NCBI RefSeq assembly: GCF_039634785.1
Contig: NZ_JBBIAB010000032.1
Location: 1-48,443 of the forward strand
Direction: 5' to 3'
Length of the DNA: 48,443 bases
Origin: Tistrella mobilis
GTDB taxonomy: Bacteria > Pseudomonadota > Alphaproteobacteria > Tistrellales > Tistrellaceae
Position 1 is the first letter of the stretch, and each line of letters opens with the position of its first letter. Of the stretch, positions 29,921 through 33,582 are shown one piece after another. A program made the translations under genes and the position numbers. The notes under the pieces were generated by a model. It ran no database searches. It saw only the letters and a program-made list of their open reading frames with translations, and was not told where the DNA came from.

Positions 29921-31351
29921 TCAGGCGCTGCGGCGCAGCGGTCCTGCGCTGTCCGGGGCCAATCGGGCGGTGAAATGACGCAGCACCCTGGGCTCGTGCA
30001 CGAAACCGAGCCCGGTAAGGTCGTGGGCACGGTCCTTCACCCGGATCAGGGCGTCGGCCACGTAATCCATATGATCGTTGGTATAGACCCGGCGCGGAAT
30101 GGTCAGCCGCAGCAGTTCCAGCTTCGACGGCTTCTGCTGCCCGGTTTCGGGGTCGCGGCCAAGCAGCAGCGATCCGATCTCCACCCCGCGCACGCCGGCT
30201 TCGACATAAAGCGCATTGGCCAGCGCCTGGGCCGGGAAGCGCGCGGGCGGGATATGCGGCAGCATGCGGGCGGCATCCACGAAGACCGCATGGCCGCCGG
30301 TCGGAGCCTGGATCGGCACGCCGCCTTCGATCAGCCGCTGGCCCAGATGGGCGACCTGGGCGATGCGATAGTCCAGGAAGGCCTCGTCCACCGCCTCGTC
30401 CAGGCCGACCGCAAGCGCGTCCATGTCGCGCCCCGACATGCCGCCATAGGTCACGAAGCCCTCCATCGGCACGCAGAGCGCCTGGACCTCGGCGAACAGG
30501 GCGGCGTCCTCGCGCACCGCGCACAGCCCGCCCATATTGACCATCGGATCCTTCTTGGCCGACATGGTCAGCACGTCGCCTTCGGCATAGATCGCGGCCA
30601 CGATTTCGGTCAGGGCCGCATCGCGCCAGGCCGGGTCGCGGCGCTTGATGAACCAGGCATTCTCGGCGAAGCGGGCGCTGTCGATCACCACCGGAATGCC
30701 ATGGGCGCGGGCCAGCGCCGCGGCGGCGCGGATATTGTCCATCGCCACCGGCTGGCCGCCGGCGCTGTTGCAGGTGATGGTGACGATCACGCCGGCGACA
30801 TTCTCAGGCCCGGCCGCATCGATCCCGGCCGCCAGGCGGTCGAGATCGAAATTGCCCTTCCAGTCGAAGGGCCGGCCGGTGTCGTAGGCGGCCGGCGTCA
30901 GCACATCGACCGCGCGCCCGCCAGACAGTTCGACATGGGCGGCGGTGGTGTCGAAATGATGGTTGGACAGAAAAACCGGCCGTGCGGCGGGGTTGCCCGA
31001 CCGCGCGCGGGCCCGGGCGATCAGCACCGGGAACAGGATCTGCTCGGCGCCGCGGCCCTGATGGGTCGGCACCACATGGCGATAGCCGAACAGCCGCCGT
31101 ACCGCGGCTTCCAGCCGATAGAAACTGCGGCTGCCGGCATAGGCTTCGTCGCCGGTCATCATCGCGGCCCATTGGGCATCGCTCATCGCACCGGTGCCGC
31201 TGTCGGTCAGCAGGTCGATATAGACATCCTCGGCGCGCAGCAGGAACAGGTTGTGGCCGGCCTCTTCCAGGGCGGCGATACGGTCTTCGCGGGTGGTCTG
31301 GCGGATGCGCTCGACCATCTTGATGCGGAAGGGTTCGGGAATGCGGGTCAT
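29921..31351 (-). CDS. tnaA: Tryptophanase
   Basis: This is a PLP enzyme of 476 residues (E. coli TnaA has 471) that splits tryptophan into indole, pyruvate and ammonia. It has the shared beta-eliminating lyase core ([40 protein letters not shown] at 264-268 with the PLP Lys). Features separating tryptophanase from tyrosine phenol-lyase are [26 protein letters not shown] and [26 protein letters not shown] marks the start at 31351; further upstream in-frame codons do not match the family. A TnaC-like leader ORF precedes it by 176 nt. No tnaB-type permease gene is adjacent. Confidence 0.93.
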
Positions 31352-31488
31352 CTGATCGCGATGTCCTGACAAGCCGCCCGCCGCGGCATCACGCAGGATG
31401 CGACGGGCGGTGGAGCAGCCGCACGGCCACGACATCCGGCTGCGGCTGCATCCGGTTCGGGCGGTGGGGCGTAAAGCTGTCGGAGAAA

Positions 31489-31513
31489 AGGGCGGCCCGG
31501 CCCTGAAACGGGC
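31489..31513 (-). terminator. Candidate attenuator hairpins between tnaC-like ORF and tnaA
   Basis: On the minus strand, AGGGC-CGGGCC-GCCCT followed by TTT (31489-31504) resembles a short intrinsic terminator. GCCC-GTTTCA-GGGC (31500-31513) is an overlapping alternative hairpin that excludes it. They start 15 nt after the leader stop codon. The stems are short (4-5 bp), and the surrounding spacer is also C-rich, as expected for Rho loading, so either mechanism is possible. Confidence 0.35.
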
Positions 31514-31527
31514 GGCCGCGGGCGCGA

Positions 31528-31683
31528 TCAGGCCCGCGGGAAATCATAGGCGAGGACGATGTCCTGATTGTACCAGGCCTTGGCGCGGTCCGCCCGGCGG
31601 GCCGCGCATGACGGCACGCGCGTCCGCGAACCGTTGCCGGTTCGACGGGAGCACCGTCTCCACGAAACCACCACCATCGGCAT
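31528..31683 (-). CDS. tnaC: TnaC-like tryptophan-sensing leader peptide
   Basis: This short ORF of 51 codons lies 176 nt upstream of tryptophanase on the same strand. GGGAAGG at 31689-31695 is an ideal ribosome site 5 nt from its ATG. The C-terminus reads [15 protein letters not shown] and then stop. The key TnaC residues are all in register: Trp37, Asn39, Asp41 and Pro49. The Trp-to-Asp distance is 4 and Trp-to-Pro 12, identical to E. coli TnaC (W12, N14, D16, P24). Two residues follow the Pro, as in the Proteus-type peptide, which ends P-K-K. TnaC stalls the ribosome when free tryptophan binds, blocking termination before tnaA. The N-terminal 34 residues are basic and differ from known TnaC. 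The Lys next to the essential Trp in E. coli is Ala36 here. Confidence 0.8.
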
Positions 31684-31734
31684 GGCGACCTTCCCAATCC
31701 ACGGGCACTGCTGTTGCAAAAGGTGGCGACAGGA

Positions 31735-31750
31735 TGTGATCCCTGTCAAG
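31735..31750. promoter_or_regulatory. CRP-like site upstream of the tnaC-like leader
   Basis: TGTGATCCCTGTCAAG fits the TGTGA-N6-TCACA pattern at 8 of 10 conserved positions and lies about 52 nt upstream of the leader ATG. The tna operon is CRP-activated in E. coli, which makes the site worth noting. A single imperfect site can be chance. Confidence 0.3.
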
Positions 31751-31809
31751 GGGCAGGACAGCATGTTAGAACTTTGAAGCGCTGCCGTGAGATACAGGGA
31801 CCATGACAT

Positions 31810-33582
31810 ATGGCGACGGCGACCGGTCCGGATAGCGGAATACTTCGCCCTCGTCGGCTGCGTCGGCCGGGGCTCAGAACCCTTCTCACCGTCACGATGG
31901 CCGGGCTCGCCCTGACCACGGTGGTTCTGCTCGCCCTGGTGGTGGCAGAGGTGGCCGGACGGCGGCAGGCGGCCGAGATCGGCGACGGTCTGGACGAGCT
32001 CGCCTTCCAGATGAGCGACAAGCTCGACCGCGCGATGTTCGAACGCTGGCGGGACATCCGGATCATCGCCGCGCGGCCGGTGCTGCGGGGCGACGACACC
32101 ACCGCCAAGCGGGTGGCGCTCGAAATCCTGCAGCAGACCTATCCCGATTACGCCTGGATCGGCTTCACCGATCCCCGGGGCAGGGTTCTGGCCTCGACCG
32201 GCGGCCTGCTCGAAGGCGAGGATGTCTCGGCGCGGCCCTGGTTTACGGCCGGGCTGAACGGGCCCTTCGTCGGCGACGTCCACAAGGCCCTGCTTCTGGA
32301 ACGGCTGCTGACCAACCCCGATCCGGGCACGCCGCTGCGCTTCGTCGACGTCTCGATGCCGGTGATGGCAGAAGGCGGGCTGATCGGCGTCGTCGGTGCC
32401 CATCTGTCGTGGAGCTGGGCCGACGACATCCGCCGGTCGCTGATCGCGCCGGGGGAAAGCCGCAGCGGCACCGACATTCTGGTCGTCGACAAGGATGGCG
32501 CCGTTCTGCTCGGCCCGCGCGCGCTCGAGGGGCAGAAACTCGATCTGCCGGGCCTGGCTGCGGGCACCACGGATCCCGGGCCGCGGGTCGAGACCTGGCC
32601 CGATGACGGCCGTGCCTATCTGACGGCCCTGCACCGCAGCCAGGGGTTTCGCGACTATCCGGGCCTTGGCTGGACGGTGGTGGTGCGCCAGCCGGTCGAT
32701 CAGGCCCTGACCCCGGTCCGCGATCTGCGCCGCCTGATCCTGTGGGGGGCGGTCGCGATCGCGGCCACCGCCTGCGGCTTCGCGCTGTGGCTGGCGGCCC
32801 GCATCGCCTCGCCGCTCGACCGGTTGAGCCGGGCGGCCCGGCGGGTGGGGGAGACCAGCAGCCCCGACGAGGTGCCGCTCGACGGCGGCTATCGCGAGGT
32901 CCGGGACCTGGCCTGGTCGCTGCAGCGGATGATCGCCGCGCTGACGCAGAAACAGGAGGAGCTGGTCCGCGCCAATCTCGGGCTGGAGGCGCGGGTCGCC
33001 GAGCGCACCGCCGAGCTGACCGCCGAGATCGCCGAGCGCCGGAAGGTGGAGCAGGAGCGCGAGGATCTGATCCAGCGCCTGAAACAGATGGCCGAGACCG
33101 ATTTCCTGACCGGGGTGATGAACCGGCGGTCCTTCTTCGACATCGCCGGTCGCGAACTCGCCGCCGCCCGGCGCTATGTCCGCGCGCTGGCCGTCATCGT
33201 GCTCGACATCGATCACTTCAAGCGGATCAACGACCGCTATGGCCACGGCACCGGCGACGAGATCCTGAAGGGTGTGGCAAAACGGCTTGCCGATGAAATG
33301 CGTGCCGGCGACATTCTGGCCCGCTTCGGCGGCGAGGAATTCGTCATCCTGCTTCAGGAAGCCGATCAGGACGCCGCCGTCGCCACGGCGGAGCGGTTGC
33401 GCACGGCGCTGGCCGACAGGAGTTTCGGCCTGATCGACGGCAGCTGCCTGACGGTCACCGCCAGCCTGGGCCTGGCGACCGCCGACCCCGAGACCGGCAG
33501 CATCGACGATCTGATCACCCGCGCCGATGCGGCACTTTACCGGGCCAAAGACGCCGGCCGGAACCGCGTTGAGGTGGGGTGA
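31810..33582 (+). CDS. Membrane-bound GGDEF diguanylate cyclase
   Basis: This 590-residue protein makes c-di-GMP. The order is membrane helix 1 (about 23-48), a periplasmic Cache-type sensor domain (about 50-305), helix 2 (about 308-331), a HAMP linker (about 332-385), a coiled coil (about 390-420) and a GGDEF domain. The active site is GGEEF at 507-511. An RxxD inhibitory site (Arg498-Asp501) sits exactly five residues ahead of it, so product feedback inhibition is expected. The neighbouring SLGLATAD and RADAALYRAKDAGRNRV motifs are intact. The gene is divergent from the tna leader. It probably senses an extracellular small molecule and controls motility or biofilm. Confidence 0.93.
   Translation: MATATGPDSGILRPRRLRRPGLRTLLTVTMAGLALTTVVLLALVVAEVAGRRQAAEIGDGLDELAFQMSDKLDRAMFERWRDIRIIAARPVLRGDDTTAKRVALEILQQTYPDYAWIGFTDPRGRVLASTGGLLEGEDVSARPWFTAGLNGPFVGDVHKALLLERLLTNPDPGTPLRFVDVSMPVMAEGGLIGVVGAHLSWSWADDIRRSLIAPGESRSGTDILVVDKDGAVLLGPRALEGQKLDLPGLAAGTTDPGPRVETWPDDGRAYLTALHRSQGFRDYPGLGWTVVVRQPVDQALTPVRDLRRLILWGAVAIAATACGFALWLAARIASPLDRLSRAARRVGETSSPDEVPLDGGYREVRDLAWSLQRMIAALTQKQEELVRANLGLEARVAERTAELTAEIAERRKVEQEREDLIQRLKQMAETDFLTGVMNRRSFFDIAGRELAAARRYVRALAVIVLDIDHFKRINDRYGHGTGDEILKGVAKRLADEMRAGDILARFGGEEFVILLQEADQDAAVATAERLRTALADRSFGLIDGSCLTVTASLGLATADPETGSIDDLITRADAALYRAKDAGRNRVEVG

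Follow-up and report, generated by a model that had tools for sequence, protein, structure and literature searches.

The window analysed here, a stretch of 48,443 nt from the alphaproteobacterium Tistrella mobilis, carries a tnaA gene for tryptophanase (476 aa) at 29921..31351 on the minus strand. Its product matched PRK13238 above the cut-off, with TIGR02617 second best and below the cut-off, and had Asp, Ile and His at the E. coli positions D137, I396 and H463. We take these three residues to be the signature of tryptophanase, as against Thr, Arg and Phe in tyrosine phenol-lyase. On that assumption they bear out the first-pass annotation, which had called the gene a tryptophanase. A tnaB gene was not present after tnaA in the window; a DUF1003 gene and a superoxide dismutase gene lay there instead.

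On the same strand as tnaA we found a frame of 51 codons closed by a TGA stop (31528..31683, minus strand), which ended 176 nt upstream of the tnaA ATG. A Shine-Dalgarno sequence, GGGAAGG (31689..31695, minus strand), stands 5 nt before its ATG and was kept at two other Tistrella loci (L003 and L084). The first-pass annotation had described this frame as a leader of the TnaC type, and its coordinates, its Shine-Dalgarno sequence and its reading frame were all confirmed. The spacing claimed from E. coli TnaC held as well, with W, N, D and P at +0, +2, +4 and +12, and two residues (Arg-Ala) follow the Pro. W37, D41, L44 and P49 thus stand for E. coli W12, D16, I19 and P24. The putative Trp-sensor part, W37-Y-N-Q-D41 (31561..31575, minus strand), corresponds to E. 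coli W12-D16, has the aromatic residue Y38 at +1 and is conserved across the family. L44 (31552..31554, minus strand) provides the Leu at +7. The putative stalling part, D47-F48-P49 (31537..31545, minus strand), has F48 at E. coli position 23. Three features went beyond the earlier description, namely the Leu at the Ile19 position, the Phe at the Arg23 position and a second Trp (W8) in addition to W37. The Asn at +2 is replaced by Thr in many relatives and is therefore not diagnostic. When the genome was searched with its own leader peptide, one clear copy was found (E 1.6e-31), and the next match had an E value of 0.08.

The tnaC-tnaA pair adjoins a divergent gene for a dCache_1-GGDEF diguanylate cyclase (31810-33582). 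dCache domains often bind amino acids. Upstream of the leader, the arrangement CTGTC-N9-GACAG-N10-CTGTC (31728-31761) overlaps a TTGACA box, and all three of its units (CTGTC, GACAG and CTGTC) were kept in the second Tistrella species. It is a possible regulator site.

Leaders upstream of tnaA in relatives

A stop-ended frame with the motif W[FYLWH][NTSDAHG].D..[LIVMA] was found in the 600 nt upstream of tnaA, on the tnaA strand, at 86 of 113 tnaA loci. These loci comprised the best 80 of 266 from a genome scan and further loci, near-duplicates (e.g. L003 and L083) being included. Over all of the same loci, the control stretches gave one match on the reverse strand, three downstream and one on the downstream reverse strand. 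With 25 loci of the Pseudovibrio exalbescens family (Alphaproteobacteria, Stappiaceae) and the window added, 139 rows were classed, the best 80 of 266 again among them. D-F-P occupied +10 to +12 in 55 rows, H-x-P was seen in four and F-F-P in three; 38 leaders were without Pro at +12, and in 39 rows no leader was found. In these rows, likewise including the best 80 of 266, a leader accompanied 100 of the 122 genes with the tryptophanase signature, none of the 15 with the tyrosine phenol-lyase signature and neither of two others.

The motif was not found within 600 nt of the remaining 22 tryptophanase-signature genes (the best 80 of 266 included). Eight of these were distant alphaproteobacterial tnaA genes (47-51% identity; L087-L091, L113, L114 and L155). 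The others were the loci of Sansalvadorimonas (L004), Parendozoicomonas (L011 and L040), Motiliproteus (L014), Sedimenticola (L026), Marinomonas (L005, with an upstream sequence of 580 nt only) and Microbulbifer (L044, L048 and L080), together with L101, L106 and the Vibrio plasmid copies L118, L121 and L122.

In the Pseudovibrio family, 14 of 87 genomes had a match. The leader was present at 13 of 13 loci with a close tryptophanase, often as W[FY]TQDVRLAYDFP, and at 0 of 12 distant loci; the signature was that of the lyase at 11 of these 12 and that of tryptophanase at L155. The second tryptophanase-like genes at L156-L166, with Thr, Arg and Phe at the signature positions and without a leader, serve as an internal control. 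Among the best 80 of 266 scan loci, the DFP ending was found in 14 of 14 Neisseriales and 20 of 20 Enterobacterales. The consensus of the DFP class was W-[FY]-[NT]-x-D-x2-[LI]-x2-D-F-P. All 53 distinct leaders of this class continue past the Pro, for one to six codons, the first of which encodes Arg in 39 of them. Their stops were mixed (27 TAA, 22 TGA and 4 TAG).

We compared codons within three lineages, after thinning the loci from 13 to 11 in the Pseudovibrio family, from 14 to 13 in the Neisseriales and from 20 to 12 in enterobacteria. These three lineages were not selected by the motif, because the leader was present at each of their close-tryptophanase loci (13 of 13, 14 of 14 and 20 of 20). 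The Trp was invariant across the sets, and D(+4), D(+10), F(+11) and P(+12) showed only synonymous differences in all three. At P(+12), the synonymous and non-synonymous differences were 44/0, 47/0 and 51/0, in the above order of lineages; such counts are pairwise and hence not independent. Leu(+7) changed only synonymously in the Pseudovibrio family and the Neisseriales, and Leu/Ile swaps occurred in enterobacteria (16/36). At +13, the counts were 7/43 in the Pseudovibrio family, where the position is free, 30/22 in Neisseriales and 32/0 in enterobacteria, where Arg is kept. The first-pass annotation had named two checks in relatives, the persistence of the frame with its W/D/P spacing and the balance of synonymous and non-synonymous change. 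Both came out in its favor: the frame and spacing were kept in the second Tistrella species and at all 13 close loci of the Pseudovibrio family, and in that family D(+4), L(+7), D(+10), F(+11) and P(+12) differed only synonymously.

The second Tistrella species (G002, locus L084) keeps the Shine-Dalgarno sequence, the start, the frame and the whole C-terminal part of the leader. In three Tistrella genomes, leader codons 24-52 (31528-31614), 29 in a row, were identical with synonymous sites included. By comparison, 25% of the tnaA codons vary among these genomes and the longest invariant run is 23 codons. The chance of 29 invariant codons in a row is about 2e-4, assuming that codons are independent. 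All leader differences lay in the N-terminal half and were mostly non-synonymous (three of three between the window and L003, four of five between the window and L084). Therefore, the peptide sequence appears to be unconstrained there. That codons 24-52 do not differ even synonymously hints at an additional constraint at the RNA level.

Predicted arrest, host ribosome and read-out

We consider, with high confidence, that the Tistrella leader is a ribosome-arresting leader peptide of the TnaC type. Judging from its sequence, ribosomes very probably stall on it at plentiful free tryptophan, as they do on E. coli TnaC. In this respect the first-pass annotation stood, supported by the residue match, the conservation and the association with tryptophanase. 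It had also assumed that peptide release is blocked, and this part had to be revised: with Arg-Ala after the Pro, peptidyl transfer would be blocked instead. As a sense codon follows the Pro, RF2 cannot be the target of the arrest, and the step blocked should be transfer to the aminoacyl-tRNA that comes next. Arrest by Proteus TnaC is described as blocking peptidyl transfer at Lys33 (PMC3902921), and by analogy the Tistrella arrest should likewise act on elongation, not on release.

We infer the following course of events. W37, Q40 and D41 would form, together with 23S rRNA A752:U2609, psi746 and G748 and with uL22 Arg90, a site in the exit tunnel that takes up a single free L-Trp. Once Trp is bound and the Pro49 codon (CCG) is in the P site, F48-P49 would obstruct the peptidyl transferase centre. 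The peptide could then not be passed to Arg-tRNA at codon 50 (CGG, 31534..31536, minus strand; the putative A site of the arrested ribosome), which would be an elongation arrest like that of Proteus. The stalled ribosome would cover the RNA past the leader, Rho could not terminate and tnaA would be transcribed. With little Trp, the ribosome would finish and leave, and transcription would end before tnaA.

Several published changes bear on these residues. In E. coli TnaC, changes of W12, D16, I19 and P24 are described as abolishing arrest (PMC10941005, PMC3902921), and I19L as functional (PMC3902921). According to PMC8429421, the half-maximal Trp concentration in vitro is about 30-fold lower with R23F, and homologues commonly have Phe at this position. 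Considering this effect, the native Phe48 at the same position suggests that the Tistrella switch may be responsive at low Trp. The N-terminal residues of TnaC are reported to matter little for arrest (PMC8429421), so the long N-terminus of the Tistrella leader need be no obstacle. Speaking against this, insertions right before the arrest motif are reported to weaken the arrest by SecM and the CmlA leader (PMC11190716).

The 23S rRNA was aligned to E. coli rrlA, which is one base longer than the standard numbering, and the positions were corrected by anchors. The Tistrella 23S rRNA was the same as that of E. coli at 746, 748, 752, 2058, 2059, 2062, 2451, 2585, 2609 and 2611, and among the positions printed it differed at 753 and 2586. 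Tistrella thus has the E. coli base at the positions that published work links to Trp sensing, among them A752:U2609 and A2058. In the E. coli complex, L-Trp is described as stacking on A752:U2609 and touching psi746, G748 and uL22 Lys90 (PMC8429421). In Tistrella, residue 90 of uL22 is Arg instead of Lys, with the positive charge kept; this difference belongs to the host's ribosome and not to the leader itself. Using uL22 genes located by tblastn, we found Arg at this residue in 7 of 7 alphaproteobacterial genomes (three Tistrella, one Pseudovibrio and three without a leader), whereas Lys was present in 13 of 13 genomes from outside the class, each of them with a leader. The uL22 genes of L094 and L136 were part of this comparison. 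In E. coli, K90H and K90W are reported to eliminate stalling (PMC8429421) and K90D to lower tna expression (PMC9045200), where position 90 is also described as variable but mostly basic. In the open-licence literature, we found no paper with both TnaC and K90R. It seems that Arg90 could keep the salt bridge.

As for the read-out, the 70 nt past the leader stop (31458..31527, minus strand) are C-rich and poorer in G (34 C, 19 G), and form a candidate rut region. Their C-G skew of 0.28 is at the 96th percentile of the sequence's own stretch; the value after the E. coli tnaC stop is 0.21, at the 89th percentile, and in several Pseudovibrio-family spacers the skew was unremarkable. A hairpin of 10 bp (31492..31519, minus strand; -21 kcal/mol) starts 9 nt past the leader stop. 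It was kept with altered bases in the second species G002. Its U tract is weak; it reads CCUUUUCUCC in the window, and that of the second species is even weaker. The terminator scan found no terminator, and the promoter scan was also unproductive. The fold of the 76-nt stop region was no better than that of shuffles (z -0.31), and the fold of the 201 nt up to tnaA had a z of -1.94. Rfam gave one sub-threshold match to the leader, groES-RNA (E 0.042). Only two of 53 DFP-class spacers had a terminator-like site. With the C-rich stretch and so few such sites, Rho-dependent attenuation as in E. coli is the better guess, and a likely one on the features of the spacer.

Could GC-rich DNA have produced this leader by chance, or is it the end of a longer open frame? 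Its reading frame is indeed open for 719 codons, mostly antisense to the GGDEF gene. However, when the 600 nt upstream of tnaA were shuffled 20,000 times by a first-order Markov scheme and all three frames were scored, W.N.D.{7}P within 10 residues of a stop never occurred, and a looser form of the motif ([LIVM] at +7, no Asn) matched once. The second species had the same base at 60 of 60 positions over 31552-31611, as against 52-57 of 60 in two flanking blocks, and the counts upstream of tnaA (86 of 113 loci, the best 80 of 266 included, against 1, 3 and 1 in the controls) point the same way. Conservation contradicts a chance frame, and we give this explanation practically no weight. A functional small protein was also considered and rejected, as in the Pseudovibrio-family set both the post-Pro sequence and most of the N-terminal part are unconstrained. 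The two Trp codons and the hairpin after the stop recall attenuation by charged tRNA-Trp, in which a ribosome would slow at codons 8 and 37 if the tRNA were uncharged and thereby switch hairpins. Induction by starvation would have the wrong sign, because tnaA degrades Trp. Moreover, the Trp codons of the leader are not in tandem, one of 55 DFP rows (including the best 80 of 266) had another Trp among the 20 residues that precede the conserved Trp, conservation extends beyond the Trp to D, D, F and P, and neither a canonical terminator nor more than a few terminator-like sites in relatives were found. The sign, the lack of tandem Trp codons and the conserved D, D, F and P led us to set this mechanism aside as extremely improbable.

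Two further alternatives accept the peptide as a TnaC and differ in what it does. The leader might have come with tnaA by transfer and now be decayed or idle, on an Arg90 ribosome that does not sense Trp and with regulation lost. The division of Arg90 and Lys90 between alphaproteobacterial and other genomes would fit this explanation, and so would the rarity of tnaA in Alphaproteobacteria, where it was found in 9 of 385 genomes (E<=1e-100), three of the nine being Tistrella, and its location on plasmid pTM3 in T. mobilis KA081020-065. In a TnaA tree built by a quick method from 103 of the 139 rows, with near-duplicates and surplus Vibrio dropped, Tistrella stood on a long branch within an unresolved fork, and the tree pointed to no donor of tnaCA. 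However, the arrest part is unchanged between the two Tistrella species. It is under purifying selection in the Pseudovibrio family, where 11 of 13 loci were compared and the single member examined for uL22 has Arg90 too. Moreover, Arg retains the positive charge. An idle leader is therefore unlikely in our view. Alternatively, the arrest may be real and be read out by an intrinsic terminator at the hairpin 31492-31519, or by another RNA switch, in place of Rho. The retention of the hairpin with altered bases in the second species and the 29 leader codons unchanged at synonymous sites, which suggest an RNA-level constraint, would agree with it. The poor U tract, the negative scan, the fold of the stop region and the few terminator-like sites in relatives argue against it. 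Among these alternatives it deserves the most attention, and we nevertheless regard it as rather improbable beside a Rho-dependent read-out of the TnaC-type arrest.

Comparison with known TnaC peptides and the variation of leader ends

The Tistrella leader resembles TnaC of the E. coli tnaCAB operon in the spacing of W12, F/Y13, N14, D16, I/L19 and P24, in its place upstream of tnaA and in the C-rich stretch past the stop. It differs in having 51 instead of 24 aa, Phe instead of Arg at position 23 and Arg-Ala after the Pro, and its host has uL22 Arg90 and no tnaB after tnaA. With Proteus vulgaris TnaC, as described in PMC3902921, it shares Leu in place of Ile19 and a Pro that is followed by a sense codon; the residue after the Pro is Lys in Proteus and Arg in Tistrella, whose leader has a longer N-terminus (W37 vs W20) and an alphaproteobacterial host. 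The Trp is unique in the E. coli and Proteus peptides, whereas there are two in Tistrella. It also resembles the DFP-class leaders of Klebsiella, Yersinia, Dickeya, Photobacterium, the Neisseriales and the Pseudovibrio family, with which it shares the consensus, and Aquitalea leaders are nearly letter-identical to it from D-I onward. From an ATG preceded by a Shine-Dalgarno sequence to the W, we counted 36 codons in Tistrella and 13-20 in those other DFP leaders in which a crude Shine-Dalgarno pattern found such an ATG. The Tistrella leader also exceeds the length range of 24-36 aa given for TnaC in PMC3902921, a range that is descriptive and not causal.

TIGR02616 (tryptophanase leader peptide) was the only NCBIfam match to the leader, aligning residues 35-49 to positions 8-22 of the 22-position profile. 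The score of 12.1 bits is below the curated cut-off of 23.55, and therefore we describe the leader as TnaC-type and do not annotate it as a TIGR02616 member. Among ten relatives, three passed the cut-off (Klebsiella 40.5, Yersinia 32.3 and L105 26.2), five were below it, and two had no match; a Photobacterium relative scored 22.8. In the open-licence literature we found no paper joining Tistrella and tryptophanase, and our searches there of titles and abstract starts found no alphaproteobacterial leader of the TnaC kind named. PMC8537960 states that leader peptides were excluded from its data. The kind of peptide is already known; its Tistrella member is outside present annotation, unusually long and in an unusual host.

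The ends of the leaders vary. Among the best 80 of 266 loci, Vibrio leaders (assigned by genus name) had Lys at +12 at 29 of 29 loci (27 distinct leaders). They lie 75-182 nt before tnaA (L006, L012, L015, L018 and others) and follow W-[YF]-N-x-D-x2-L-S-L-x2-K. Pairwise differences in the Lys(+12) codon were 26 synonymous and 0 non-synonymous among the same best 80 of 266, and from +13 on the leaders were free (30/255). W+12 is thus the last constrained codon in Vibrio, and the prediction is an arrest on peptidyl-tRNA-Lys, with Lys standing where E. coli TnaC requires Pro24. Eight further leaders without Pro at +12 end otherwise (e.g. SSLHF, FHLSSE). The leaders of L007, L009, L021, L069 and L103 keep W-[YF]-[NT]-x-D-x2-L and have Pro-less ends (e.g. 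SSLHF, ACLHF).

The variation of these ends suggests a fixed sensor joined to varying stalling ends. The arrest peptide might be a two-part module that works on both uL22 Arg90 and Lys90 ribosomes, with a fixed sensor, W-x3-D-x2-L, and a lineage-variable part for the peptidyl transferase centre (DFP in Tistrella, H-x-P in E. coli, FFP in some relatives and Lys for Pro24 in Vibrio). We put this forward tentatively, at somewhat less than even confidence; if it is true, a natural TnaC arrested on peptidyl-tRNA-Lys is predicted. The Tistrella leader also suggests that annotation of alpha- and betaproteobacteria overlooks leaders which score under the present NCBIfam cut-off. Two native features make Tistrella a natural test case for the L-Trp site, namely Arg in place of the ligand-contacting Lys90 of uL22, and Phe at position 23, the same as the laboratory change that raised the Trp sensitivity of E. 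coli TnaC about 30-fold. The textbook case of an arrest peptide that senses a metabolite would be extended to Alphaproteobacteria, in hosts that differ at one Trp-contacting ribosomal position.
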